Shown here one piece after another: positions 4,616 to 45,812 of a DNA stretch of 64,000 nt. Made by a program: the position numbers and the translations under genes. The notes under the pieces were generated by a model that was not told the origin of the DNA, searched no databases, and saw nothing but the letters and a program-made list of their open reading frames with translations. The DNA lies in contig SUGL01000028.1 in assembly GCA_004963905.1 (NCBI GenBank), forward strand, positions 22,204 through 86,203. The letters run 5' to 3'. The stretch comes from Mesorhizobium sp. (GTDB lineage Bacteria > Pseudomonadota > Alphaproteobacteria > Rhizobiales > Rhizobiaceae). Each line of letters begins with the position of its first letter. Position 1 is the first letter of the stretch.

Positions 4616-5109
4616 AACGGCACACCTCTTACGCTCACACCCGCCGTATTAATTAACGAATTGCTAATCTAGCCCTTTGCATTCCGTACGGGAACCCTCT
4701 CCAAAAGACGGAAGAAATTAAGGTTATCGCGGGTTTCCAGAGGCTTGCGCGATGTTCCGCCAGCGACATCTCCGCCAAGCGCGATAAGTGGTTCCAACGG
4801 GAGGGTTCGGCCGCATAAGGTCAAGCCAAGGCAAGCATCTTGCGCCGTCGGGCGATGGCCTCGCCGCCGCCGCACCAGCCCGGCTTTCCCGGCAGGGCGT
4901 CAGGCAGTCGCATATATCGCGGGCGGATTGTCGCCATGAGTCGAACCCCGCGATATTTCCCCAATCGCGGCAGCGGCCACTTCGGAATCAATGCCCCGAA
5001 CACTCAGACCCTCCGGCAAATTTGATTTGACTCTCGTCCGTTCTTGACAGAATAAATTCCTACCAATTTTGAGGGAGTGGCAGTTCTCAAAAGCTTGGGG
5101 CCAGGAGCG
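4616..5109. other. Gene-free intergenic stretch
   Basis: I see no convincing gene here. An AT-rich patch (TTAATTAACGAATTGCTAAT) at about 4650-4670 probably holds the promoter of the coiled-coil gene. A TTGACA at 5044-5049 may belong to the promoter of the small gene starting at 5110, but no good -10 element follows at standard spacing. Confidence 0.4.
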
Positions 5110-5376
5110 ATGCCGATAGGACGCTACGCCGAAAATGGCGGCTTCTTTGAACCTGACGAGTTGGCACATCTGCAGAACATCTTCGATCAAATCTGTGCGC
5201 GTGGCGAGATCGACCGCCGAAGCGAGCAGGCCGAATTCGTGGCGACATACCTGATCACCCTCTATCGACGCGGACTGCGCGGCGACGAGTTGTTTGACGC
5301 TGTTTCGCCGAAGATGCCTCGCCGCCTAGGACACCCCCATGGCACGGCGCCGGTAAGATCTTCGGAAAGCGCCTGA
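5110..5376 (+). CDS. Small F-x-P-x-E-L family protein (paralogue 1)
   Basis: An 88-residue soluble protein with the N-terminal motif FFEPDELAHLQNIFDQIC, followed by an acidic/Gln region and RRGLRGDELFDAVS. Two further genes in the window (31763-31981 and 57962-58159) share the order F-x-P-x-E, a hydrophobic helix ending in [IV]F[DE], and a second helix ending in an E-L pair, so this is a small diverged family. The ATG at 5110 follows AGGAG closely. An in-frame GTG at 5077, also after a purine-rich stretch, is the alternative start. Function unknown; a helical protein-protein adaptor is possible. Confidence 0.6.
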   Translation: MPIGRYAENGGFFEPDELAHLQNIFDQICARGEIDRRSEQAEFVATYLITLYRRGLRGDELFDAVSPKMPRRLGHPHGTAPVRSSESA

Positions 5377-5467
5377 TGGGATCTGGACCGTCTTCGACGT
5401 GTTCACCGGACAGCCCACTGGGTGACCGGCTAGTCGAGTGTTGCATTGGAAAAGACGGGCTTCGACC

Positions 5468-5869
5468 TTAGGGGCAACGCAGCCTTTTCGTCGGCCGGCT
5501 CCCTAATTCGTCGACCTGGTCTGCCGGTGTCTGCACGTGATAAGCCAACCCCTGCCGTTCGGCATAGCGAACGGCTGACTCCAATGTCGGAAAGTTGAGT
5601 TCGATCTGCGCCAGCGTATCTTCGCCGCCGGTATAGCCCATCAGCGAATCGATGAATGGCGCGGTGCGGCGCTCGAAGACGAGACGCCAGCCTTTCGTGC
5701 ATGCCTTGCCCGACGTCGTCACCGAGCGGGACGCCTTGCAGATGCGGGCGACGGCATCCCGCGGGAACAGCGAGCGACCCATCTCGAGCGCCGAGTTCCG
5801 GCTGGAGGGCAACGCCGTCGATCCGTAGCTTGTTCTGCTTTTCGCTCTCCGTGTGGCGTTCTCCATCAT
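5468..5869 (-). CDS. NDUFS4-like ETC complex I subunit paralogue
   Basis: A 133-residue protein whose C-terminal two thirds match the conserved region of the 18 kDa accessory subunit of NADH-ubiquinone oxidoreductase (ETC_C1_NDUFA4/NDUFS4 family): ARICKASRSVTTSGKACTKG, then WRLVFE, DSLMGYTGGEDTLAQIELNF and AVRYAERQGLAYHV. The ATG at 5869 follows GGAGGGACGCG. It lies 67 bases after the second Hsp20 gene on the same strand and is probably co-transcribed with it. The basic N-terminus (residues 1-30) is longer and less conserved than usual, so this is probably a stress-associated paralogue and not the housekeeping copy; that role is inference. Confidence 0.75.
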   Translation of the reverse strand: MMENATRRAKSRTSYGSTALPSSRNSALEMGRSLFPRDAVARICKASRSVTTSGKACTKGWRLVFERRTAPFIDSLMGYTGGEDTLAQIELNFPTLESAVRYAERQGLAYHVQTPADQVDELGSRPTKRLRCP

Positions 5870-5936
5870 CGCGTCCCTCCCCGAGCGGCGAAGGACGGTG
5901 CCGACGGCGGCTCGAGCCGCCGTCGGCACTACTCGC

Positions 5937-6446
5937 TCAGTGTCTGATTTCGATGCGCTTGGCCTGCGACTGCGCCTTCGCGGTCTTGGGCAGCGTCACC
6001 GTCAGCACACCGTTCTTGAAGCGGGCATCGATCTTGTCCTCTTCGATCTCGTAACCCAGAGGTATGCGACGCTCGAAGCGGCCATAGACGCGCTCGGAGA
6101 ACTGCCGTTCCTTGTCCTCCGTCTCGGAGCGCTTTTCACCCTTCAGCGTCAGCACGCCATCATCAAGCAGGACCTCGATGTCCTTCTCCTCCAGCCCGGG
6201 CACTTCGGCCGCCACCTTGATCTCCTTCTCGCTGTCGGAGATTTCGACGCTCGGCCAACCGCCACCGAAGGCTGAAACGCCGCCCGGGGACGGCAAGCCG
6301 GAGCCGAAGCCGCGGAAGACGTCATCGAACAGCCGATTCACCTCTCGATGCAGCGACAGGAACGGATCGCGTTCGCCGTCGCGAAAGACACTCGGTAGCT
6401 GGTTGCTATTGTTTCGGCCCCAGGGAATAAGATCACGCACAGTCAT
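5937..6446 (-). CDS. Small heat-shock protein, Hsp20 family (class with extended N-terminus)
   Basis: An ATP-independent holdase chaperone of 169 residues. The alpha-crystallin domain begins near residue 65 (WPSVEISDSEKEIKVAAEVPG) and contains KGEKRSE and the hallmark GVLTVTLPK near the C-terminus. The IEI motif in the tail (RIEIRH) is the usual I-x-I oligomerisation contact. The ATG at 6446 follows AAGGAG; an in-frame ATG seven codons upstream has no such site. It is downstream of another Hsp20 gene on the same strand, separated by 94 bases that hold a GCTTCGCGCGAAGC hairpin. Confidence 0.92.
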   Translation of the reverse strand: MTVRDLIPWGRNNSNQLPSVFRDGERDPFLSLHREVNRLFDDVFRGFGSGLPSPGGVSAFGGGWPSVEISDSEKEIKVAAEVPGLEEKDIEVLLDDGVLTLKGEKRSETEDKERQFSERVYGRFERRIPLGYEIEEDKIDARFKNGVLTVTLPKTAKAQSQAKRIEIRH

Positions 6447-6540
6447 TGTTTTCTCCTTTCTGTTCACCTTCTGTTCATCCGCGAGACTGCCTCAAAACGC
6501 CGGGGCGTATCACCCGACGCTTCGCGCGAAGCGGTGAAGC

Positions 6541-7011
6541 TCAGGCGGCCTCGGCCTCGATTTTCTTCGGGGCGGCCTTTGGCACTGCCTTGTCCGGCGT
6601 GATGTCGATCCGGCGCGGCTTCATTTCTTCCGGAATTTCGCGCTTGAGATCGATCGTCAGCAGGCCGTTGACGAGGCTGGCGCCGATGACCTTGACGTGA
6701 TCGGCAAGCTCGAAGCGACGCCGGAACGAGCGGCCCGCGATGCCGCGATGCAGATACTCGCCCTTGTCTTCGCCTGTCTTCTGGCCAGAAACCATCAGCA
6801 TGTTCTGCTCCTGGGTAATGGTCAGTTCATCCTGACTGAAGCCCGCCACCGCCATGGTTATGCGGTAGTCGTCCTCGCTGGTCTTGGCGATATCGTAGGG
6901 CGGCCAGTTATCAACGGTTTCGATGCGGCTCGCGGTCTCGAGCGCGTTCAGCATTCGATCGAAGCCGATGCTCGACCGGAACAGGGGAGAAAAGTCGAAG
7001 CTGGTTCTCAT
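6541..7011 (-). CDS. Small heat-shock protein, Hsp20 family (IbpA/HspA-type)
   Basis: A 156-residue holdase chaperone of the IbpA-like rhizobial class. The alpha-crystallin domain starts near residue 40 (YDIAKTSEDDYRITMAVAGF) and includes YLHRGIAGRSFRRRFELADH and GLLTIDLKREIPEE. The tail is Lys/Ala-rich. The ATG at 7011 follows GGAGGATGTAGCT, about nine bases after the core Shine-Dalgarno. It is the first gene of a likely hsp20-hsp20-NDUFS4-like operon. The leader contains strong hairpins and an RpoH-like promoter, so heat induction at both transcriptional and translational levels is likely. Confidence 0.93.
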   Translation of the reverse strand: MRTSFDFSPLFRSSIGFDRMLNALETASRIETVDNWPPYDIAKTSEDDYRITMAVAGFSQDELTITQEQNMLMVSGQKTGEDKGEYLHRGIAGRSFRRRFELADHVKVIGASLVNGLLTIDLKREIPEEMKPRRIDITPDKAVPKAAPKKIEAEAA

Positions 7012-37484: not shown

Positions 37485-37570
37485 GGCCAAGTATGGCTTG
37501 GCCAGGATGAGACTCGATGCCGCGCCCATGAGAGATCACGGGCCTGCTACTTGCAAAAGCCGGATTTTGC
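37485..37570 (+). promoter_or_regulatory. Two dyads upstream of the copper/thiol cluster
   Basis: GGCCAAG-N5-CTTGGCC (37485-37503) and GCAAAA-N6-TTTTGC (37553-37570) precede the first gene of the cluster. They are possible operators. No MerR-type 19-base spacer is visible here, unlike at 43093. Confidence 0.4.
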
Positions 37571-37588
37571 CGTCAGCCTAAGCGGGCA

Positions 37589-37972
37589 ATGGCTCGGCTA
37601 TCGCCAAAACACCTCCTGGTCATCCTGCTCGCGGTCTTCCTGACCGCTGGGTTCAGTCTGTCCGCCGTACAGGCCAGCACCATGTCAGTCCGCATGACCG
37701 GCGCCATGGCCATGCCTGCCGATACGGGCATGGGCAAAATGGCCGGCTCAGACATGAAGGGCGACTGCAACGCCTGCCTCAAGGATACGGGCGACAAGGG
37801 CAGCCCGATGCAGTGCCCGCCGGCCTGCATCGCGCCGGCGCTCGCCGTGCTGCCGCAGGGTTTCGGGATAACGCCGGTCCCCTTCGTGCAGCAGCCATCG
37901 GCCTTGCCAGCTCCGTTCCTGCGCGGGCGAAGTTCCCTACCCGACCCATACCCTCCCAGACCCGGCGCCTGA
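37589..37972 (+). CDS. Secreted Met/Cys-rich protein of the copper cluster
   Basis: A 127-residue protein with a signal peptide (LLVILLAVFLTAGFSLSAVQA). It contains Met-rich MTGAMAMPADTGMGKMAGSD and four Cys in DCNACLK and MQCPPACIAP, followed by a Pro-rich tail. Met and Cys clusters of this type bind Cu(I). It heads a run of copper-related genes and resembles short exported proteins found in rhizobial metal loci. Weak ribosome site. Function as a periplasmic copper buffer is inferred. Confidence 0.6.
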   Translation: MARLSPKHLLVILLAVFLTAGFSLSAVQASTMSVRMTGAMAMPADTGMGKMAGSDMKGDCNACLKDTGDKGSPMQCPPACIAPALAVLPQGFGITPVPFVQQPSALPAPFLRGRSSLPDPYPPRPGA

Positions 37973-38109
37973 CGCCGTTTCAGCCGCAACACGGCTGATC
38001 CCCGGCGCCTGATCGCCTGCGCGCGCGTGGTCGCGCCGTGGGTGCGCATGGCAATCCAGGTCGATGCCGAACCATTCGCCGTCGATCGCGATCGCAAAGG
38101 GTCAGAAGG

Positions 38110-39546
38110 GTGAATTACGATTTCAAATGCCACTTATCGCGCCGAGGCTTTCTCGCCGCCGCGGCGGGGCTTGCCGTATCCGCTTCGTTACGTCCCGCCA
38201 TGGCCTCCGGCGTCGACGAGCGCAGCATCAAGGTCGCGCCCAGCCAGGCGCGGCTCACCGGGCAGGACGGCCCTGCAACCGCTGTCTGGGCGTATAATGG
38301 CACCGTCCCCGGTCCGGCGTTGCGGTTCAGGCAAGGCCAGCCGGTCCGCATCACCGTCGAAAACGGGTTGGACGAGGACACGACTGTCCACTGGCATGGA
38401 ATCCGCCTGCCGAACGCCATGGACGGCGTGCCGGGGCTGACGCAGTCGCCGATAAAGCCGGGCGAAAGCTTCGTCTACGAATTCACGCCGCCGGATGCAG
38501 GCACCTTCTGGTATCATCCGCATGCCGACAGCCTGGTGCAACTCGGCCGCGGGCTGGCCGGCCCGCTGATCGTCGAGGAGGCCGAGCCGATCGCAGTCGA
38601 CCGCGATCTCGTATGGCTGCTGCAGGACTGGCGGCTCACCAAAGACGGCCGGATCGCCGGGGGCTTCGGCAGCATGATGGATGCCTCGATGTCCGGCCGC
38701 GTCGGCGATGTGGTCACCATCAACGGGCAGGCGCCGACGGACCAGAGCGTAAGGGCCGGCGAGCGCGTCAGGCTCCGGCTCGCCAATGCCGCACTTGCCC
38801 GCATGATGGCCCTGTGCTTCGAGGGCCACCGTCCGGTTATCGTCGCGATCGACGGCCAGCCGTGCGAGCCGCATGAACCGGCTGACGGTCGTCTTGTGCT
38901 TGCGCCGGCAATGCGCATCGACGTCGTGCTCGACATGCAAGGTGACCCCGGCAGCCGGCATGCCGTGATCGACGACTTCTACGATGGGCTTGCCTACACG
39001 CTGACCAACCTTGCCTACGACAAGGCGTCGCCGCTTCGGGCGCATCCGCTCGACACCTCCGTCGGCCTGCCTCGCAACCCACTGCCTGCGCCGAGCCTGG
39101 CGAACGTCGTGCGTCAGGAAATCGTGCTGCAGGGCGGCATGATGGGCGGCGGCAAGCTCGCCGGCGTCGGCGGCATGATGGGCATGGGCATGCCCGGCAT
39201 GAACGGAGACGCCGCCTGGGCGATCAACGGCATGTCGATGACCGGCGACGGCCATGCCGGCATGGCGCCGCAGTTCACGCTCGAACGCGGCGTCACCTGC
39301 CATCTCACCATGCGCAACGAGACCGCCTGGTGGCACCCGATGCATGTGCACGGGTTCAGCCTTTCGGTGCTTTCCCGCAACGGCGCGCCGGTACCGCATC
39401 GGCAATGGCAGGACACGGTGCTGCTCGCGCCCAAGGACACGGTCGAATGCGCCTTCGTCGCCGACAATCCCGGCGACTGGATGCTGCACTGCCATGTCGC
39501 CGATCACCAGATGGCCGGTCTGATGACCGTGTTCCGGGTGACCTGA
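38110..39546 (+). CDS. Multicopper oxidase 1 (Tat-exported)
   Basis: A 478-residue periplasmic multicopper oxidase. Tat signal SRRGFLAAAAG follows the GTG start at 38110. Copper ligands are all present: HWHG at 94-97, WYHPHAD near 134-140, HPMHVHG in the last quarter and HCHVADHQMAGLM at the end (HCH 460-462). At the usual type 1 axial Met position (five residues after the last His) there is Leu, so a higher-potential site is possible. A Met/Gly-rich loop (GGMMGMGMPGMNGDA) may guide Cu(I). It is 38 bases before the DUF411 gene. Confidence 0.9.
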   Translation: MNYDFKCHLSRRGFLAAAAGLAVSASLRPAMASGVDERSIKVAPSQARLTGQDGPATAVWAYNGTVPGPALRFRQGQPVRITVENGLDEDTTVHWHGIRLPNAMDGVPGLTQSPIKPGESFVYEFTPPDAGTFWYHPHADSLVQLGRGLAGPLIVEEAEPIAVDRDLVWLLQDWRLTKDGRIAGGFGSMMDASMSGRVGDVVTINGQAPTDQSVRAGERVRLRLANAALARMMALCFEGHRPVIVAIDGQPCEPHEPADGRLVLAPAMRIDVVLDMQGDPGSRHAVIDDFYDGLAYTLTNLAYDKASPLRAHPLDTSVGLPRNPLPAPSLANVVRQEIVLQGGMMGGGKLAGVGGMMGMGMPGMNGDAAWAINGMSMTGDGHAGMAPQFTLERGVTCHLTMRNETAWWHPMHVHGFSLSVLSRNGAPVPHRQWQDTVLLAPKDTVECAFVADNPGDWMLHCHVADHQMAGLMTVFRVT

Positions 39547-39583
39547 TTTTCAATCCAACCCAATAACCCAAGGAGAACCGCAA

Positions 39584-40024
39584 ATGAAATTGACCTACGC
39601 GCTGACCGCCCTCGGCCTCGCAATCGCAACGCCGCTGCCGGCACTCGCCGCGACGATCGACGCGGTGATGTACAAGAACCCGCAATGCAGCTGCTGTGAG
39701 GCCTATGCCGCCTATCTCGAGCAGAACGGCTTCAAGGTCGACATCAAGCCGGTCAACAACCTTTCGCAGATCAGCAGCGATGCCGGCGTGCCCGCCGACC
39801 TCGAAGGCTGCCACACGATCATGGTCGACGGTTATGTCGTCGACGGCCTAGTGCCTGTCGAGATCGTCAAGAAGCTCCTGACCGAAAGGCCGGCAATTGC
39901 CGGCATCACGCTCGCCGGCATGCCTGCCGGCGCGCCGGGCATGGGCGGCGAGAAGAGCGAGACGTGGACGATTTACGCCTTCACCAAGGATGGCAAGGCG
40001 CCGACCGTCTATGCGACCGGGTGA
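39584..40024 (+). CDS. DUF411 periplasmic metal-binding protein
   Basis: A 146-residue protein with signal peptide (TALGLAIATPLPALAA) and the DUF411 thioredoxin-like core: MYKNPQCSCCEAYAAYLEQN with CxxC-C, and GCHTIMVDGYVVDGLVPVEI. DUF411 proteins occur next to multicopper oxidases and copper exporters and are suspected copper-binding proteins. Start follows AAGGAGAACCGCAA. The next gene starts 7 bases after its stop. Confidence 0.88.
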   Translation: MKLTYALTALGLAIATPLPALAATIDAVMYKNPQCSCCEAYAAYLEQNGFKVDIKPVNNLSQISSDAGVPADLEGCHTIMVDGYVVDGLVPVEIVKKLLTERPAIAGITLAGMPAGAPGMGGEKSETWTIYAFTKDGKAPTVYATG

Positions 40025-40030
40025 ACGCCC

Positions 40031-40576
40031 ATGACCGCATGCAAACTGGCCGTGGCCCTTTTGGCGATGCTGTTCGCGGCCGTGCTGCCCACAAGGGCGG
40101 CGGAGGCGCCGCAGAACTTCACCGTTCTCGATACGCCCGCCGCCGTGCCGGAGATCAGCTTCGCGGACGCCGCCGGCAAGCAGAAAACGCTCGCGGATTA
40201 TTCCGGCAAGGTGGTGCTGCTCAACATCTGGGCGACATGGTGCGCGCCCTGCCGCAAGGAAATGCCGACGCTCGACCGGGTGCAGGCCAAGCTCGGCGGA
40301 CCGGACTTCGAGGTGGTCGCGCTGTCCATGGATCGCAAAGGGCCCGACGCGGTGAAGAAATTCTTCGCCGAGACCGGCGTCACGCACCTTGCGTTGAACA
40401 TCGACACCTCGGCCAAGGCGATGTTCACGCTTGGCGCCGTGGGCCTGCCGATGACGCTGTTGATCGACCGGCAAGGCAAGGAGATCGGCCGGCTGATCGG
40501 CCCGGCCGAGTGGGACGCTCCCGACATGGTGGACTTCATCCGTGGCCGAATCACCGCCGAACAGAAGGAGGAATGA
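40031..40576 (+). CDS. TlpA-like thioredoxin-family protein
   Basis: A 181-residue periplasmic thiol-disulfide reductase of the TlpA/ResA type. The active site is NIWATWCAPCRKEMPTLDRV (CAPC near residue 76) and the cis-Pro is in GAVGLPMTLLIDRQGKEIG. In rhizobia TlpA reduces the Cys pairs of copper chaperones such as ScoI and of cytochrome oxidase subunit II; placement between DUF411 and Sco genes fits this. Only 6 and 3 bases separate it from its neighbours. Confidence 0.92.
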   Translation: MTACKLAVALLAMLFAAVLPTRAAEAPQNFTVLDTPAAVPEISFADAAGKQKTLADYSGKVVLLNIWATWCAPCRKEMPTLDRVQAKLGGPDFEVVALSMDRKGPDAVKKFFAETGVTHLALNIDTSAKAMFTLGAVGLPMTLLIDRQGKEIGRLIGPAEWDAPDMVDFIRGRITAEQKEE

Positions 40577-40579
40577 ACG

Positions 40580-41323
40580 ATGGTTGTTCGGACACTGCAC
40601 CGGCCGGCGGATCGTTGTCTCACACCGAGTTGGATGCGCCTGCTGCTCGGCCTGGTTGCACTCGCGGCGATGGCCGTCGGCTTCGCGCATGGCGCCCGGG
40701 CGCATTCGCTCGAAGATATCGATGGCTTGCTCCAGAGCGACGAGAAATATTTCCAGCCAATCGACAAGCCGATACCGGATTTCACGCTGCGCACCGCCGA
40801 TGGCCGCACCGTGCGGCCTGCCGATCTCTCCGGCAAGGTCGTCGTGCTCCACTTCATCTACACCTCATGCCCGGACGTTTGCCCGCTGCATGCCGAAAAG
40901 ATCGCCGAGGTGCAGAAGATGGTGAACTCGACACCGATGAAGGATCGGGTCGTCTTCATCAGCATAACGACCGACCCACGAAAAGACACGCTCGATGCAC
41001 TCGAGGCCTACGGGCCGACACATGGGCTCGACCCAGCCAACTGGTTGTTCCTGACCACGGTTCCCAACCAGCCGGAGGATACCACCCGCAAGCTGGCTGA
41101 AGCCTTCGGCCACAAGTTCACCCTCACCGACGACGGCTATCAGATGCACGGCATCGTCACCCACGTGATCGACAGGGAGGGCCGCTGGCGGGCGAACTTC
41201 CACGGGCTGAACTTCCAGCCCATCAACCTCGTCACCTTCGTCAACGCTCTCACCAACAATGTCGAGCGCCCGCACCATGAGCAGGACGAAGGCTGGCTGG
41301 CGAAACTGAAGAACCTGCTGTGA
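40580..41323 (+). CDS. SCO1/SenC family copper chaperone
   Basis: A 247-residue protein anchored by an N-terminal TM (LLLGLVALAAMAVGFAHGA) with the periplasmic thioredoxin fold of Sco proteins: VVVLHFIYTSCPDVCPLHAE has the Cu-binding CxxxCP, and MHGIVTHVIDREGRW supplies the His ligand. Sco inserts copper in the CuA centre of cytochrome oxidase or acts as a redox protein. TlpA lies directly upstream and a DsbA-like gene downstream. Confidence 0.93.
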   Translation: MVVRTLHRPADRCLTPSWMRLLLGLVALAAMAVGFAHGARAHSLEDIDGLLQSDEKYFQPIDKPIPDFTLRTADGRTVRPADLSGKVVVLHFIYTSCPDVCPLHAEKIAEVQKMVNSTPMKDRVVFISITTDPRKDTLDALEAYGPTHGLDPANWLFLTTVPNQPEDTTRKLAEAFGHKFTLTDDGYQMHGIVTHVIDREGRWRANFHGLNFQPINLVTFVNALTNNVERPHHEQDEGWLAKLKNLL

Positions 41324-41358
41324 GGCAGGACCAACGTTTTCGAAAGGAAGGAAAGCAC

Positions 41359-42150
41359 ATGTCCACCAGGACGCGCACGGGCCGATTTTTCAGAAGCATC
41401 TTTCGCACCATCTTGCTCGCTGCGCTGGCGGGATGGTTTCTGCTCAATCCAGGCTTGCCAGGTGCTCGGACACCGGCATTCGCGGCTGGCGAGATGTCCC
41501 AGGACCAGCTCGACCAGCGGATTCACGACTACATTCTGGCGCATCCGGAGGTTCTCGTGCAGGCGCTGCAGAGTCTGGACGAGCGCCAGCGTCAAGCGGA
41601 GGCGGCCGAAGCCAGGAAGGTGCTCAAGGCGCGCGCGGACGACATCTTCCAGGACGGGCACAGCCCCGTCGGAGGCAATGCGCAAGGCAATGTCACCTTG
41701 GTCGAGTTCTTCGACTATAATTGTCCCTATTGCCGGATGATGGCGCCGATCATGGAACAGGCCGTGGCCGACGATCCGCAGCTCAGAATCGTCTACAAGG
41801 AATTTCCCATACTCGGCCCCGATTCCGTGTTCGCGGCCAAGGCGGCGCTCGCCGCCGACAAGCAAGGCAAATACGCGGCGTTTCACAAGGCGCTTTATGC
41901 GGCAAAGACAAGAGTGACCGAGGCGGTCGTGCTCAAGACCGCCGCCGAGGCCGGGTTGGACGTCGAACGCATGAAGGCCGACATGCGTCAGCCGGACATA
42001 CAAGCATCGATCGACCGCAACACGGAACTGGCCCAGGCACTGAGAATCACCGGGACGCCGGGCTTCGTTGCAGGCGACCAGATTTATCCCGGCGCGACCG
42101 ATCTTGCGACCCTGAAGACATTGGTCAACCAAGCGAGGGCCGGCAAATGA
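41359..42150 (+). CDS. DsbA family periplasmic thiol oxidoreductase
   Basis: A 263-residue protein of the DsbA/Com1 (27 kDa) class. A basic N-terminus and TM (TILLAALAGWFLLNPGLP) are followed by a helical DUF-like N-domain (DQRIHDYILAHPEVLVQALQ) and the thioredoxin domain with FFDYNCPYCRMMAPIMEQAV (CPYC near residue 125) and cis-Pro ITGTPGFVAGDQIYPGA. ATG at 41359 follows GGAAGGAAAGCAC. Its stop overlaps the next start as ATGA. Likely oxidises or isomerises disulfides of exported copper proteins. Confidence 0.9.
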   Translation: MSTRTRTGRFFRSIFRTILLAALAGWFLLNPGLPGARTPAFAAGEMSQDQLDQRIHDYILAHPEVLVQALQSLDERQRQAEAAEARKVLKARADDIFQDGHSPVGGNAQGNVTLVEFFDYNCPYCRMMAPIMEQAVADDPQLRIVYKEFPILGPDSVFAAKAALAADKQGKYAAFHKALYAAKTRVTEAVVLKTAAEAGLDVERMKADMRQPDIQASIDRNTELAQALRITGTPGFVAGDQIYPGATDLATLKTLVNQARAGK

Positions 42151-42704
42151 GCAGTACCCCAAACCGGCGCACGGTTGTTCTCGGCGCGTTCGGCGTCGCC
42201 ACGGCCGCGGGCCTTTTCGAGCGGCCTGAGCCAGCAACCGCCGCCGACGATCCCGAATTGGCCAAGCGTTTCAAGGATCTCAGCGAGAACGGCAACAGCA
42301 CCTGCTCGGCCAAGTTCACGGACTCGATCGCGATGATGCCGCCGATGTCCCGCATCAAGGGCTCATGCTGCAGTCCGATGGAATTGAAGCGCTATGGCGA
42401 GCAGGTGCGAGGGCTTGCCAAGTACCGCGCCATCCCGATGATCCCCAGCGATCCTTATGACATTGCGGCGGCGACAGCGCAGCAGATGATGCCGTACTAC
42501 GATCTGAAGCTCACGGGAGACGAGCAGAAGGCCTATGACTACGCGATGGCCAATTCCGAGGAGAAAGGTCCCTGCTGCTGCCCTTGCTGGCGCTGGAAGG
42601 TGTATGGCGGACTGGCGAAATACCTGATCCACGAGCATGGTTTCGACGGCGAGCAGATCGTGGATGTATGGAACCTCTCCGACGGCTGTGGCGGGGGGAT
42701 GTGA
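42147..42704 (+). CDS. Cys-rich exported protein of the copper cluster
   Basis: A 185-residue protein starting at ATG that overlaps the DsbA-like stop. Tat-like N-terminus NRRTVVLGAFGVATAAGL. The mature part has eight Cys: NSTCSAKF, SCCSPMELKRYGEQVR, EKGPCCCPCWRWKVYGGLAK and SDGCGGGM. KYRAIPMIPSDPYDI and YDLKLTGDEQKAYDYAMANS are well ordered. I do not know a named family. Translational coupling to the DsbA-like gene suggests it is its substrate or partner; copper binding by CCCPC is plausible. Confidence 0.75.
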   Translation: MSSTPNRRTVVLGAFGVATAAGLFERPEPATAADDPELAKRFKDLSENGNSTCSAKFTDSIAMMPPMSRIKGSCCSPMELKRYGEQVRGLAKYRAIPMIPSDPYDIAAATAQQMMPYYDLKLTGDEQKAYDYAMANSEEKGPCCCPCWRWKVYGGLAKYLIHEHGFDGEQIVDVWNLSDGCGGGM

Positions 42705-42757
42705 GAAGTTGCCCGAGCATCTGAGCTTCCCGGCCGACAACCTCAATCCTTCACGCC

Positions 42758-42785
42758 TTGACGACGTCTCGTCGCGAGGTAGTTA
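42758..42785 (+). promoter_or_regulatory. Possible sigma70-type promoter
   Basis: TTGACG-N16-TAGTTA lies upstream of the 35-residue gene at 42848. Weak -10 element; the call rests only on pattern and position. Confidence 0.3.
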
Positions 42786-42847
42786 CCATCGCATTCGCCG
42801 ATAGGCATCGCGAGACTTCCCGGTAACAAAGGAGGATGATCGTCGTG

Positions 42848-42955
42848 ATGGACGGTGGCACGTGGATGATGGGCGGCATGGCGCTCATCTGGGTTCTGGC
42901 GGTGATCGCCCTTCTGCTCTCGATTGGCGCGCTCGTCAAATACCTGCGAAGCTGA
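42848..42955 (+). CDS. 35-residue membrane peptide
   Basis: MDGGTWMMGGMALIWVLAVI followed by ALLLSIGALVKYLRS: one TM helix with a Met/Gly-rich exterior segment and a Lys/Arg end. ATG at 42848 follows AAAGGAGGATGATCGTCGTG, a very strong ribosome site. Similar tiny membrane proteins occur near copper genes in other bacteria. It would be missed at common length cut-offs. Confidence 0.6.
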   Translation: MDGGTWMMGGMALIWVLAVIALLLSIGALVKYLRS

Positions 42956-42974
42956 GTGATAGCCCATACCGGCC

Positions 42975-42995
42975 TCGACCTTCCGGCAGCTGGAA
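42975..42995 (+). promoter_or_regulatory. Half-related CueR-type dyad
   Basis: TCGACC then TTCC-N7-GGAA, the same layout as the better site at 43093 and 118 bases upstream of it, but no -10 follows at 19 bases. It may be a decayed copy. Confidence 0.3.
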
Positions 42996-43092
42996 CTGTT
43001 GGGTGAATGAAACGTCGTCCGAAGACGCGCAGCGTCGGGCGGTGTAGCTTGAGCCTGTTGCTGGCCCTGTCCGCTGGTTCGCCCGATCCCGC

Positions 43093-43123
43093 TTGACCTT
43101 CCAGTTGCTGGAAGCCCTAGCCT
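43093..43123 (+). promoter_or_regulatory. MerR/CueR-type promoter with 19-base spacer
   Basis: TTGACC and TAGCCT are separated by exactly 19 bases, and the spacer contains the perfect dyad CTTCCAG-TTG-CTGGAAG (43098-43114). This overlong spacer with a centred dyad is the signature of promoters twisted open by MerR-family activators such as CueR. It is 57 bases upstream of multicopper oxidase 2. Confidence 0.8.
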
Positions 43124-43179
43124 GAGTAAAAGGATCGCCCCGGCGGCGCCCTTCCCAATCACGAACGAGGGCAAAAAAG

Positions 43180-44709
43180 ATGCATCGACGCGGCTTTCTG
43201 GTGGCGGGCCTGGCAACGGCTCTCGCGGGCTCGCGCGCACTGGCGCAGATGAAGATGGACGGCATGTCGGACATGGATTCCATGCCGGGCATGGGCGGCC
43301 ATGCTGGCCACGACATGGGCGCCATGGGCGCCATGGGTCAGAGCCCGACCGCGCTGCCCCAAGGCGAGGCGCTGCGCGAATTGCCGCCGCTGGCCAACGA
43401 AGCCGGCCGGTCCGGCCTGTTCAGGGCGCGGCTGACGGCGGAGCCGGCCACGGCTCGCTTTGTCGCGGACAGGGAAACGCCGATCCTTGCCTATAACGGC
43501 ATGAGCCCGGGGCCGCTGATCGAGGCCTATGAGGGCGATCGCGTCGAGATCACCTTCGCCAACCGGATCGGGGACGAGCCCAGCACGATCCACTGGCACG
43601 GCATGCCGGTGCCGGCCGACCAGGACGGCAATCCGATGGACCCGGTGGCGGCGGGCGCGGACCGCGCCTACGCCTTCGAGCTGCCGGAAGGCAGCGCCGG
43701 CTCCTACTGGTATCACCCGCATCCGCACGGCCGGACGGCCGAGCAGGTCTATCGCGGCCTTGCCGGCGCCTTCGTCGTCAAAGCCAAGGCCGATCCTGTT
43801 CCGGCTGCCTATGGCGACACCGTGCTCATGTTCACCGACCTTCGCCTTGCCGCCGACGGCTCAATGCCCGACAACACCATGACCGACCTGATGAACGGCC
43901 GCGTCGGCGACCATGTGCTGGTCAACGGCCAGAAGAACCCCAAGCTGACCGTGGCGATGGGCGCGAGGCGGCGCCTGCGGCTCTATAACGCCACCAATGC
44001 GCGCTTCCTCAGGCTCGCCTTCGGCAACGCCGCGATGACGGTGATCGGCAGCGATGGCGGCCTGCTGGAGAAGCCGGTGGCGGCTGACGAGATCCTGCTC
44101 AGCCCGGCCGAGCGCATTGAACTGGTCGTCGCCTTCGACAAGCCGGGAACCGCTTCGCTCACCACGCTTGCCTATGACCGCGGCTGGATGGGTCCGGGCC
44201 GGCCCGAGGACGCCGGGTTGACGTTGCTGACGGTCGAAGTTTCCGACGCACCGGCCGAGGCGATGCCGCCGCTGCCCGAGCGGCTGAGGCCGATCGCGCC
44301 GCTTGCGGCTCCCACGGTCAGCCGGCGCCTCGTCTTCACCGAGACCATGGCGATGAACGCCACCGGCATGGAGATGGGTTTTCTGATCAACGGCAAGGCG
44401 TTCGACATGGGGCGCGTCGACATCGTCGCCAAGGCCGGCGAGACGGAACTCTGGGAAATCGTCAACCAGGCCGACATGGACCACCCGTTCCATCTTCACG
44501 GCACGCAGTTCCAGGTGGTCGAGCGCGAGCGCGGCGGCAAGGTCTCCAAACCGCCCTATCTGGCATGGAAGGACACGGTCAACGTGGCGCGCGGCGAGAC
44601 GGTGCGGCTTATCACGCGCCAGGAGCGGCCGGGGCCGCGCATGTATCACTGCCACATCCTCGAGCATGAGCAGCTCGGCATGATGGGCATCGTCGACGTG
44701 CAGGCGTGA
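43180..44709 (+). CDS. Multicopper oxidase 2 (CueO/CopA-like)
   Basis: A 509-residue periplasmic multicopper oxidase. A Tat-like start HRRGFLVAGLATALAG is followed by a Met/His-rich segment (MKMDGMSDMDSMPGMGGHAG and DMGAMGAMG) expected to bind Cu(I). Ligands: IHWHGMP, SYWYHPHPHG, HPFHLHGTQF and MYHCHILEHEQLGMM, with Met in the axial position, unlike oxidase 1. It probably oxidises toxic Cu(I) to Cu(II). Transcribed from a CueR-type promoter and coupled to cytochrome c556 by a GTGA overlap. Confidence 0.93.
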   Translation: MHRRGFLVAGLATALAGSRALAQMKMDGMSDMDSMPGMGGHAGHDMGAMGAMGQSPTALPQGEALRELPPLANEAGRSGLFRARLTAEPATARFVADRETPILAYNGMSPGPLIEAYEGDRVEITFANRIGDEPSTIHWHGMPVPADQDGNPMDPVAAGADRAYAFELPEGSAGSYWYHPHPHGRTAEQVYRGLAGAFVVKAKADPVPAAYGDTVLMFTDLRLAADGSMPDNTMTDLMNGRVGDHVLVNGQKNPKLTVAMGARRRLRLYNATNARFLRLAFGNAAMTVIGSDGGLLEKPVAADEILLSPAERIELVVAFDKPGTASLTTLAYDRGWMGPGRPEDAGLTLLTVEVSDAPAEAMPPLPERLRPIAPLAAPTVSRRLVFTETMAMNATGMEMGFLINGKAFDMGRVDIVAKAGETELWEIVNQADMDHPFHLHGTQFQVVERERGGKVSKPPYLAWKDTVNVARGETVRLITRQERPGPRMYHCHILEHEQLGMMGIVDVQA

Positions 44710-45272
44710 GGTTCCGCGCCGTTCTCGGGGCGGCGATGCTTGCGCTCGCCGGCCCGCCGACCTTTGCTCCGTCGCTGGCGGCAGGTCCCGGCAATCCCAT
44801 CGTGGCGGCACGCCAGGCCTCGATGAAGGAGATGGCGGCGGCCGCGAAGACGATCGCCGAGATGTTCGACGGCAGGCGCGCCTATGAGCCGGCAGCCTTC
44901 AAGGCGGCGGCGAAAACGCTCAGCGCCCGCACCGGCCCTGCCCTCATCGCCGAGTTCCCCGCCGGCTCGCTCGGCGCGCCATCAGCCGCCAGGCCGGAGA
45001 TCGACCAGGCTCGGCCGGAGTTCGAGGCGCTCGCCCGCCATGTCGGCCAGCTCGCCGACGCGCTCGCCGCCAAGGCAGATCAGGCGCCGACCGCGATCAC
45101 CGGCGATATGCGCATGGGCGCCATGCTGCCGATGGACGGCGGCAGCCTGCTCGGCAAGCGCCCGGGCGCCGCCGAGACCGATCCGGCAAAGCTGCCGGCC
45201 GAGCATCTCCTGCATCTCATCCTGCAGGATTGCTCGAGCTGTCATTCGAAATTCCGACAAAAGACGGAGTGA
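44706..45272 (+). CDS. Cytochrome c556 / c'-like monohaem protein
   Basis: A 188-residue periplasmic four-helix-bundle cytochrome. GTG at 44706 overlaps the oxidase stop. Signal peptide LGAAMLALAGPPTFAPSLAA. The single haem c site CSSCHSKFR sits at the very C-terminus, as in cytochrome c'/c556, and ARQASMKEMAAAAKTIAEMF forms helix A with a Met that may be the axial ligand. It may take up electrons from oxidase 2 or be an NO/copper-stress protein. Confidence 0.85.
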   Translation: MRFRAVLGAAMLALAGPPTFAPSLAAGPGNPIVAARQASMKEMAAAAKTIAEMFDGRRAYEPAAFKAAAKTLSARTGPALIAEFPAGSLGAPSAARPEIDQARPEFEALARHVGQLADALAAKADQAPTAITGDMRMGAMLPMDGGSLLGKRPGAAETDPAKLPAEHLLHLILQDCSSCHSKFRQKTE

Positions 45273-45313
45273 GGCGCGCATCGGGCGGCCCGGCCATCGG
45301 CAAACACTTGTTC

Positions 45314-45337
45314 AGCACAATAAAATCAGTTTGTGCT
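45314..45337 (+). promoter_or_regulatory. Dyad upstream of the cupin-like gene
   Basis: AGCACAA-N10-TTGTGCT, a perfect 7-base inverted repeat in an AT-rich promoter zone 53 bases before the next start. The regulator is unknown. Confidence 0.4.
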
Positions 45338-45389
45338 AATATATAGAATGCCATGCTCATCCGTGCATGACAGGTTTAGGGAGGATGCG

Positions 45390-45812
45390 ATGAAAACGAT
45401 GAATCGCAGGTCTGCAATCGCTCTCGGCGTGACGGCAGCAACGGTTGCGCCCCTGTTCGCAACGGCGACATTTGCGAAAACCAAGAAGTACGGTGCGAAC
45501 GAAGGCAAGGAGATCGCGCCCGGCGTCAGAGTGGTGGAAGTCGGCACCGGCAATTCCGACATTCCCGCTTACAAGAGCATCTCGATTGTCGACGTGGTGT
45601 TTCAGCCCGGAGCACACGCGCCTCAGACCGTGATGGACAACGACATGGTGTGCACGATTACCTCCGGCGCATTCACCATCAAGAAGGCGGACAAGGAGTT
45701 CAAGCTGAAGGTTGGCGACATGTACACCTGCTCCAAGGGCAAGACCGACGAGGCGACGAACACCAGCAAGGAAGTCGGCGTGCACCGGATCGCCGTGCTG
45801 GTTCCCGCCTGA
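45390..45812 (+). CDS. Tat-exported cupin-like small protein
   Basis: A 140-residue protein with a Tat-like signal (MNRRSAIALGVTAATVAPLF) and a small beta-barrel-like body: VDVVFQPGAHAPQTVMDNDM, VCTITSGAFTIKKADKEFKL and KVGDMYTCSKGKTDEATNTS. The PGAHAP and GD motifs suggest a cupin, with one His instead of the usual metal-binding HxH. ATG follows AGGGAGGATGCG. It is transcribed independently at the end of the copper cluster. Function unknown. Confidence 0.65.
   Translation: MKTMNRRSAIALGVTAATVAPLFATATFAKTKKYGANEGKEIAPGVRVVEVGTGNSDIPAYKSISIVDVVFQPGAHAPQTVMDNDMVCTITSGAFTIKKADKEFKLKVGDMYTCSKGKTDEATNTSKEVGVHRIAVLVPA

Follow-up and report, generated by a model that had tools for sequence, protein, structure and literature searches.

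A likely two-unit periplasmic copper-tolerance cluster in Mesorhizobium, with a cutFOG-type operon, a thiol branch and an orphan cysteine-rich family

Why does the soil bacterium Mesorhizobium carry, in close succession, genes for multicopper oxidases (MCOs), thiol-disulfide proteins and a cysteine-rich protein, and do these genes serve one pathway? The question is raised by a 64,000-nucleotide (nt) stretch of contig SUGL01000028.1 (positions 22,204 to 86,203, assembly GCA_004963905.1), here called the window, in which a sequence-only reading had described a run of genes at 37589..45812 as a single pathway coupling copper oxidation, copper delivery and disulfide handling. Every gene named there was found in the window, all on the + strand, and the close packing was borne out, with gaps of 6 nt (DUF411 to TlpA) and 3 nt (TlpA to Sco) and 4-nt overlaps of the Dsb-like with the eight-cysteine (8-Cys) gene and of the second oxidase gene (MCO2) with the cytochrome c556 gene. 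We consider it likely that the run is an accessory periplasmic copper-tolerance cluster made of two units: a cutFOG operon extended by a thiol branch and the 8-Cys protein, and, behind it, an oxidase unit with a CueR-type promoter. The gene identities, their order, the CutF motifs and their spacing, a predicted hairpin and the CueR-type box are what is observed. The cutFOG core is already known; what deserves interest is the gene combination and the orphan Cys-rich family. A search by title or start of abstract, with the subscription literature largely outside its coverage, returned no rhizobial or CutF/DUF411-linked description of this combination.

A cutFOG core extended by thiol proteins

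In R. capsulatus, the cutFOG genes encode CutF, with a CxxxC motif and a proline-rich C-terminus, the Tat (twin-arginine translocation) oxidase CutO, and CutG, a CopG homologue with a C-X-C-C motif, and CutF is a copper sensor that governs translation of the oxidase (PMC8456105 and PMC9973294, in the parts consulted). The sections of PMC8456105 used here define CutF proteins as having fewer than 170 amino acids (aa), no Pfam match, a signal peptide, CXXXC, PP and a multicopper oxidase within ten genes; Pfam-matching proteins are left out of its CutF-like set by this rule. The first protein of the window cluster (37589..37972, +; 127 aa, and 116-133 aa across the 19 loci compared, namely the window plus 18, L022 included) agrees with these rules in its length, in its lack of Pfam matches (no family at E<=0.1, and likewise none in NCBIfam), in its CxxxC (CPPAC) and PP (PYPPRP) motifs, both kept in 19/19 loci, and in having the oxidase gene as the next gene; its N-terminus looks typical of a signal peptide as judged by eye. 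It also carries a CxxC, is Met-rich with four Cys in all, and ends in PDPYPPRPG.

That next gene (38110..39546, +) encodes MCO1, a cutO-like Tat multicopper oxidase with an SRRGF signal, three Cu-oxidase Pfam domains, a Met-rich stretch and the motifs HWHG, HPH, HPMHVHG and HCH in its translation; it scored 169.4 bits against the NCBIfam CueO model NF008205, below the cut-off of 525. The third gene (39584..40024, +) encodes a DUF411 protein with both features of CopG/CutG proteins, a PF04214 domain (68.5 bits, cut-off 27) and C-X-C-C (CSCC), which matches PDB entry 6wis (E 2.6e-20), named CopG in the parts of PMC8456105 consulted. Because the order is that of cutF, cutO and cutG, the first protein has the CutF motifs and the DUF411 protein matches 6wis, these three genes are, by their sequences, the known cutFOG set. 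The sequence-only reading had listed the first product as a Met/Cys-rich exported protein, which it is, but had recognised neither the CutF-type leader nor the cutFOG set. The window shares with R. capsulatus the order of a small exported CxxxC/PP protein, a Tat multicopper oxidase and a CopG/DUF411 protein, and in both a stem-loop lies between the first two genes, according to the published parts used; unlike R. capsulatus, the window continues with TlpA, Sco, ScsC-type and 8-Cys genes, and its predicted RNA pairing differs in detail.

The extension starts with a TlpA-like periplasmic thiol-disulfide protein (40031..40576, +; CAPC, Redoxin/AhpC-TSA), followed by a Sco-family protein (40580..41323, +) with PF02630 (75 bits, cut-off 22.8) and the CxxxC motif of that family (CPDVC within CPDVCP). 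The best PDB match of TlpA is 1jfu (E 2.8e-41) and the next is chain C of 4txo; we take both to be Bradyrhizobium TlpA entries, 4txo being TlpA with Blr1131 (Sco). The window pair resembles the Bradyrhizobium TlpA-ScoI pair in that the gene for a homologue of 1jfu and of chain C of 4txo adjoins a Sco gene, and differs from it in that the genome holds extra copies and in that the best match of the Sco protein (matches 4hde and 4wbj) is 4hde, not Blr1131. In the host genome (7.06 Mb, 450 contigs), a second TlpA on contig C166 scores 294.6 bits against the rhizobial TlpA model NF047696, above its curated cut-off of 230, whereas the window TlpA scores about 177.7 and falls under it; a second Sco on contig C333 reaches 176 bits, as compared with 75-76.5 for the window Sco. 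Because of these further, higher-scoring proteins, the window TlpA and Sco look like dedicated copies. Between the TlpA and Sco genes, mostly, 11 of 20 related loci have a small membrane-type protein with Cys-rich segments (e.g. L014:5585-5938), which is absent from the window and had no Pfam match.

The next protein (41359..42150, +) had been called DsbA-like. The gene and its CPYC motif are indeed present (PF01323, 98.1 bits), but an ScsC N-terminal domain (PF18312, 38.9 bits, cut-off 25.8) refines the assignment to a thioredoxin-fold protein of the ScsC/Com1 type. It is closest to 3gyk (E 2.3e-47), an entry titled '27kDa outer membrane protein', followed by 7rgv (2.8e-38) and 4xvw (7.3e-29). 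In the consulted parts of PMC8900818, the Caulobacter ScsC paper, 7rgv is cited, 5id4, whose sequence is identical to that of 4xvw, is called Proteus mirabilis ScsC, and reduced Caulobacter ScsC is described as binding Cu(I). The window thus shares with the ScsC system, as described there, the N-terminal domain, a CPYC thioredoxin-fold domain and the copper context; it differs in having no adjacent ScsB, none being found by a Pfam scan among the window cluster genes, while ccdA adjoins the ScsC-type gene in some relatives.

How stable this arrangement is was examined in 20 loci (L008-L027), drawn from GTDB genomes that a pattern-based search had recovered with the 8-Cys protein, the close matches being Mesorhizobium; some of these loci end early, as L020 does about 1.2 kb past the 8-Cys gene. 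In 18/20 loci the 8-Cys gene is preceded by the Met/Cys, MCO1, DUF411, TlpA and Dsb-like genes, their order and strand unchanged, with extra genes between them in some (the exceptions are L023 and L026), and since the order recurs so often, the close packing is not a matter of chance. Sco is more variable: 15 of the 20 loci have it at >=67% identity (in L017 over a short piece), matches in L014 and L021 are weak, and none was found in L010, L023 and L026. A PCuAC gene occupies the Sco gap in L010, and PCuAC adjoins the ScsC-type gene in 3 of 30 genus loci, where no Sco match was found within the 3.5 kb examined; this set of Mesorhizobium loci overlaps partly with the genomes behind the 20-locus set.

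Outside the chromosomes, a plasmid survey gave 13 matching records, 10 of them from Sinorhizobium or Ensifer. Four of the seven regions inspected among the 13 have a small cutF-like protein, a multicopper oxidase and DUF411, then thiol proteins, CcdA and the 8-Cys protein, and plasmid pSinB has SCO, DsbA, CcdA and 8-Cys together. At the level of gene content, a role in copper handling is therefore supported, as is its link to thiol chemistry, the genes being kept as a group both in Mesorhizobium and on plasmids of Sinorhizobium/Ensifer. In Microvirga the 8-Cys gene lies about 4.5 kb away on the opposite strand, and in Burkholderia only a 52-residue piece matched, near an MCO gene and a MerR gene. 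Within the genus there are at least two chromosomal settings, both named by eye: beside a gene resembling those of type III polyketide synthases (L008, L011, L017, L019, L025) and beside a tyrS-like gene (L009, L010, L012, L014, L015, L027), which suggests movement or recombination. What seems to be a second copy in decay is present in the host genome itself: contig C244 (1-12000; locus L085, about 4800-6700) encodes pieces of another DUF411 protein and of a multicopper oxidase, together with a Met-rich peptide of one helix.

The leader and the RNA ahead of the oxidase gene

Is the first protein a regulator or a carrier of copper? Its sequence resembles a regulatory leader of the CutF type more than a carrier. 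In 19/19 loci the spacing between the second Cys of CxxxC and the last PP has the same value, exactly 42 residues, while the intervening sequence varies; the value is 41 in the S. meliloti locus L037 and 40 in L023, and it is also 41 in R. capsulatus (C73 to P114), taken from the numbering in the part of PMC8456105 consulted. A similar design is described in the accessible parts of PMC9426467 for CruR of Bordetella pertussis, an exported-type leader with a Cys motif, a C-terminal PP, a long intergenic region and a spacing that is also nearly fixed (45 intervening residues). CruR differs from the window leader in its motifs (CXXC and RAPP versus CxxxC and PPRP), and it turns genes off with copper. 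Membership of the first protein in the DUF2946/CruR family was considered and rejected, there being no PF11162 match at the window site. A separate DUF2946 (CruR-type) gene scoring above the cut-off is present elsewhere in the host genome (C111:75440, L040). Nearby are a CopC-like gene and a gene for a YcnI-looking protein.

Just 5' of cutF lies a conserved element with a GCAAAA-N6-TTTTGC inverted repeat, CTTGCAAAAGCCGGATTTTGCCGTCAGCCT (37550..37579, +), recognised by eye in 18/19 aligned loci, the exception being L022. When <=3 mismatches are allowed, the genome contains it a single time, as compared with zero for a reversed-pattern control, and it is the probable promoter or operator of the putative cutF operon.

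Within cutF, the PP segment is encoded by the arrest-like codons CCA TAC CCT CCC AGA (P-Y-P-P-R; 37946..37960, +), of which CCT is conserved in 19/19 and CCA in 18/19 loci, these two codons making up 7.1% and 3.9%, respectively, of the Pro codons in the 22 window open reading frames (ORFs) taken as genes. A hairpin directly past the cutF stop codon (37973..38007, +) is part of the RNAalifold consensus of 18 loci, in which its pairs are mostly preserved; the folding sets exclude L022, where the MCO1 start was not located. The MCO1 Shine-Dalgarno region (38096..38109, +) has AAAGGG and then AGAAGG ahead of GTG 38110, which we take as the start because ATG stands at the aligned place in L008, L017 and, by eye, L019. 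The starts called in L009, L012, L013, L014, L019 and L025 appear too far downstream and were not used as evidence; in folding, they were set by a nearby-codon rule. In these folds, the Shine-Dalgarno region's predicted pairing involves the PP-codon segment for 6.0 of 10.9 units on average, which suggests an anti-Shine-Dalgarno role for the PP codons.

The 8-Cys protein and the second oxidase unit

The last protein of the first unit (42147..42704, +) is an exported-type protein of 185 aa with a GPCCCxCWRW motif. Seven of its Cys (C53, C74, C75, C143, C144, C145 and C147) are invariant among 20 aligned sequences (the window and 19 of the 20 loci), and the eighth is nearly so; in Sinorhizobium and Microvirga relatives, the GGG end is followed by short clusters of His. 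Searches of Pfam and NCBIfam returned nothing at E 0.1, and a PDB sequence search no match to E 10. An AlphaFold2 model is mostly helical, with a pLDDT (predicted local distance difference test) of 81.0, below 50 for the first 29 residues, and a pTM (predicted template modelling score) of 0.74; with this model, Foldseek gave 29 matches against PDB folds at E<=10, the best at 1.7 and none at E<=0.001. The protein is thus an orphan, its family having no known relatives in Pfam, NCBIfam, PDB sequences or PDB folds. It was matched in 39/146 genomes of the genus, the host genome counted and a few matches partial, and in 3 of 398 sampled genomes of the phylum, all three in the same genus.

In 29/30 genus loci it is preceded by an ScsC-type gene of the same orientation, with ccdA (PF02683) in between in 8. 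In the distant proteobacterial locus L023 (9506-10483), the 8-Cys gene directly follows a gene for a 118-aa protein with CxxxC and a SPPRA tail, which we read, from its sequence, as CutF-like, and no multicopper oxidase was found among the neighbouring ORFs inspected there; in L026, from Solirubrobacterales, a gene for a CopC-CopD protein adjoins the 8-Cys gene and a CcdA-like gene is about 4 kb off. We regard the 8-Cys protein as a putative Cu(I)-thiolate protein or ScsC client. A more specific version, that it represents a new periplasmic Cu(I)-thiolate family whose CC and CCCxC cysteines are reduced by an ScsC-type/CcdA relay for copper loading, with the CutF leader tying its production to periplasmic copper, is tentative and somewhat doubtful. 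Its role is the least certain part of our proposal.

Behind this gene lies that of a Met-rich single-helix membrane peptide of 35-39 aa (42836..42955, +), which gave no match in a Pfam search; tblastn found it downstream of the 8-Cys gene in 8/20 loci, and its Met-rich core and KYLR end are preserved in the 7 of these that were inspected. A CueR-type promoter (43093..43123, +; TTGACC-19 bp-TAGCCT with the dyad CTTCCAG-N3-CTGGAAG) then precedes MCO2 (43180..44709, +), a Met-rich Tat multicopper oxidase with Cu-oxidase Pfam domains that, at 272.9 bits against NF008205 and thus below the cut-off of 525, is CueO-like only. A cytochrome c'/c556-like protein follows (44706..45272, +; CSSCH, PF01322 59 bits). 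A CueR-like box stands 52-85 bp ahead of the MCO2 match in 6/6 loci (the window and five others) and in 5/5 further genus MCO2 loci, four of which look identical to loci already counted; its -10 is poorer in some loci, and a degenerate second box lies at 42975 in the window. MCO2 and c556 follow the first unit in 5/20 loci and were not found in the other 15, of which two lack the whole cluster and one is the early-ending L020. Given the promoter ahead of MCO2 and the loci in which MCO2-c556 was not found, MCO2-c556 is probably a separate unit, so that transcription of the whole run as a single unit is unlikely; to this extent the idea of a single pathway is not supported.

The arrangement resembles the CueR-CueO regulon in having a CueR-type box ahead of a CueO-like oxidase, and is unlike it in that the c556 gene follows the oxidase and the closest regulator gene lies elsewhere in the genome. 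Within the host genome, the closest MerR relative (62%) maps to contig C110, where a CPC-type ATPase is encoded some 12 kb away, and a MerR gene lies near MCO2 in three of the five MCO2 loci of the 20-locus set (L008, L017, L025). The sequence-only reading had also called the combination unusual for lack of a P-type ATPase or CopZ. As regards the ATPase, this applies just to the cluster itself: outside it, the genome carries 7 PF00122 matches, of which three or more include a CPC motif, as well as a CueR homologue, and we dropped the lack of an ATPase as an unusual trait. The cupin-like exported-type protein at the end of the run (45390..45812, +; PF07883 17.8 bits, below the cut-off of 27.2) is loosely linked to the cluster, as it was found in 8/20 loci, four of them without an MCO2 match.

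Alternatives and proposed mechanism

Several observations speak against our interpretation. The hairpin after the cutF stop codon shows zero compensatory changes in the 18 loci, the changes in it being one-sided or broken; two-sided changes affect 3/28 pairs of the whole consensus structure and the covariation term is -0.24, so that covariation support is negligible, and since the 18 sequences are too alike, the hairpin is not proven. Codon invariance is not unique to the PP segment, as GTG at a valine column is also found in 19/19 loci. When the PP segment was forced open, mean openness of the Shine-Dalgarno region rose from 0.36 to 0.43, compared with a mean of 0.37 for control stretches and 0.43 for the best stretch per locus; it dropped by 0.01-0.13 in 4/18 loci, and L008 and L017 show hardly any pairing with the PP-codon segment. 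Because the small effect equals that of the best control stretch and covariation is negligible, anti-Shine-Dalgarno pairing is kept as a suggestion only. None of the four matches to PF11162 (DUF2946) found in the host genome to E 10 lies at the window site. In L023 and L026 the 8-Cys gene occurs without the rest of the cluster, and in L071 the ScsC-type match is confined to the last 29 residues while the 8-Cys gene is whole; as only a remnant of the ScsC-type gene is present there, the pair is not strictly needed.

Were the first protein a genuine carrier of copper in the periplasm instead, the constant spacing and the PP tail would serve its binding to the oxidase. Its Met-rich composition and four Cys would suit a carrier, and in 2021 the possibility that CutF supplies CutO with copper as a chaperone was discussed (PMC8456105, in the parts consulted), but by 2023 CutF was found to become dispensable on mutation of the downstream stem-loop (PMC9973294, likewise). 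With a hairpin past the stop codon in the 18-locus consensus, rare codons kept at PP and a spacing that stays fixed while the sequence in between varies, we regard a carrier role as rather unlikely. Improbable, in our judgement, is a role of the cluster in cytochrome oxidase assembly, in which TlpA reduces Sco, copper loading by Sco serves the CuA site of an aa3 oxidase, and the supply route is protected by the multicopper oxidases. The TlpA and Sco genes adjoin each other and each product matches a 4txo chain, and PCuAC, which is also a CuA chaperone, occurs in the region of some relatives; this explanation was lowered because the genome holds better-scoring copies of Sco (176 vs 76.5 bits) and TlpA (294.6 vs 177.6), and it also has to contend with the presence of the 8-Cys cluster marker in just 39/146 genus genomes, with the finding by eye of no oxidase-subunit-like protein among the neighbouring ORFs translated, and with plasmid neighbours (MCO, CopG, RND) that indicate tolerance.

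That the cluster deals chiefly with a different soft metal (silver, gold or mercury), or that it serves thiol-oxidation stress, seems very improbable. Such metals bind Cys and Met, CueR-type promoters respond to silver and gold too, and a gold mine is the origin of pSinB, on which a relative is found; yet the two multicopper oxidases, CopG and Sco, together with PCuAC and CopC/CopD domains in relatives, are copper proteins.

We thus favour a copper-tolerance cluster of two units and propose how it may work, each functional step being carried over by analogy from relatives in R. capsulatus, Caulobacter and Bradyrhizobium. The first unit (37589-42704) would be a cutFOG operon with an added thiol branch, in which: CutF would be translated and exported, and copper on its cysteines would slow the ribosome at the PP segment; this slowing would open the RNA ahead, so that MCO1/CutO is made; and MCO1 would turn Cu(I) into Cu(II), the less toxic form. 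DUF411/CutG, Sco and the 8-Cys protein may bind Cu(I) through thiols that TlpA and the ScsC-type protein would keep reduced or correctly paired, and CcdA, whose gene is adjacent in some relatives, may feed this branch. The second unit, MCO2-c556, would be induced by an activator of the CueR type whose gene lies elsewhere.

If this proposal is true, CutF-type copper sensing by a nascent chain would govern a larger accessory copper operon in rhizobia, and the fixed distance from sensor to PP makes such sensing open to test. An uncharacterised Cys-rich family would then be seen to accompany copper and thiol genes wherever these occur, whether chromosomal or plasmid-borne in the loci examined, and the suggestion that the 8-Cys protein is a client of the ScsC-type protein is directly testable.

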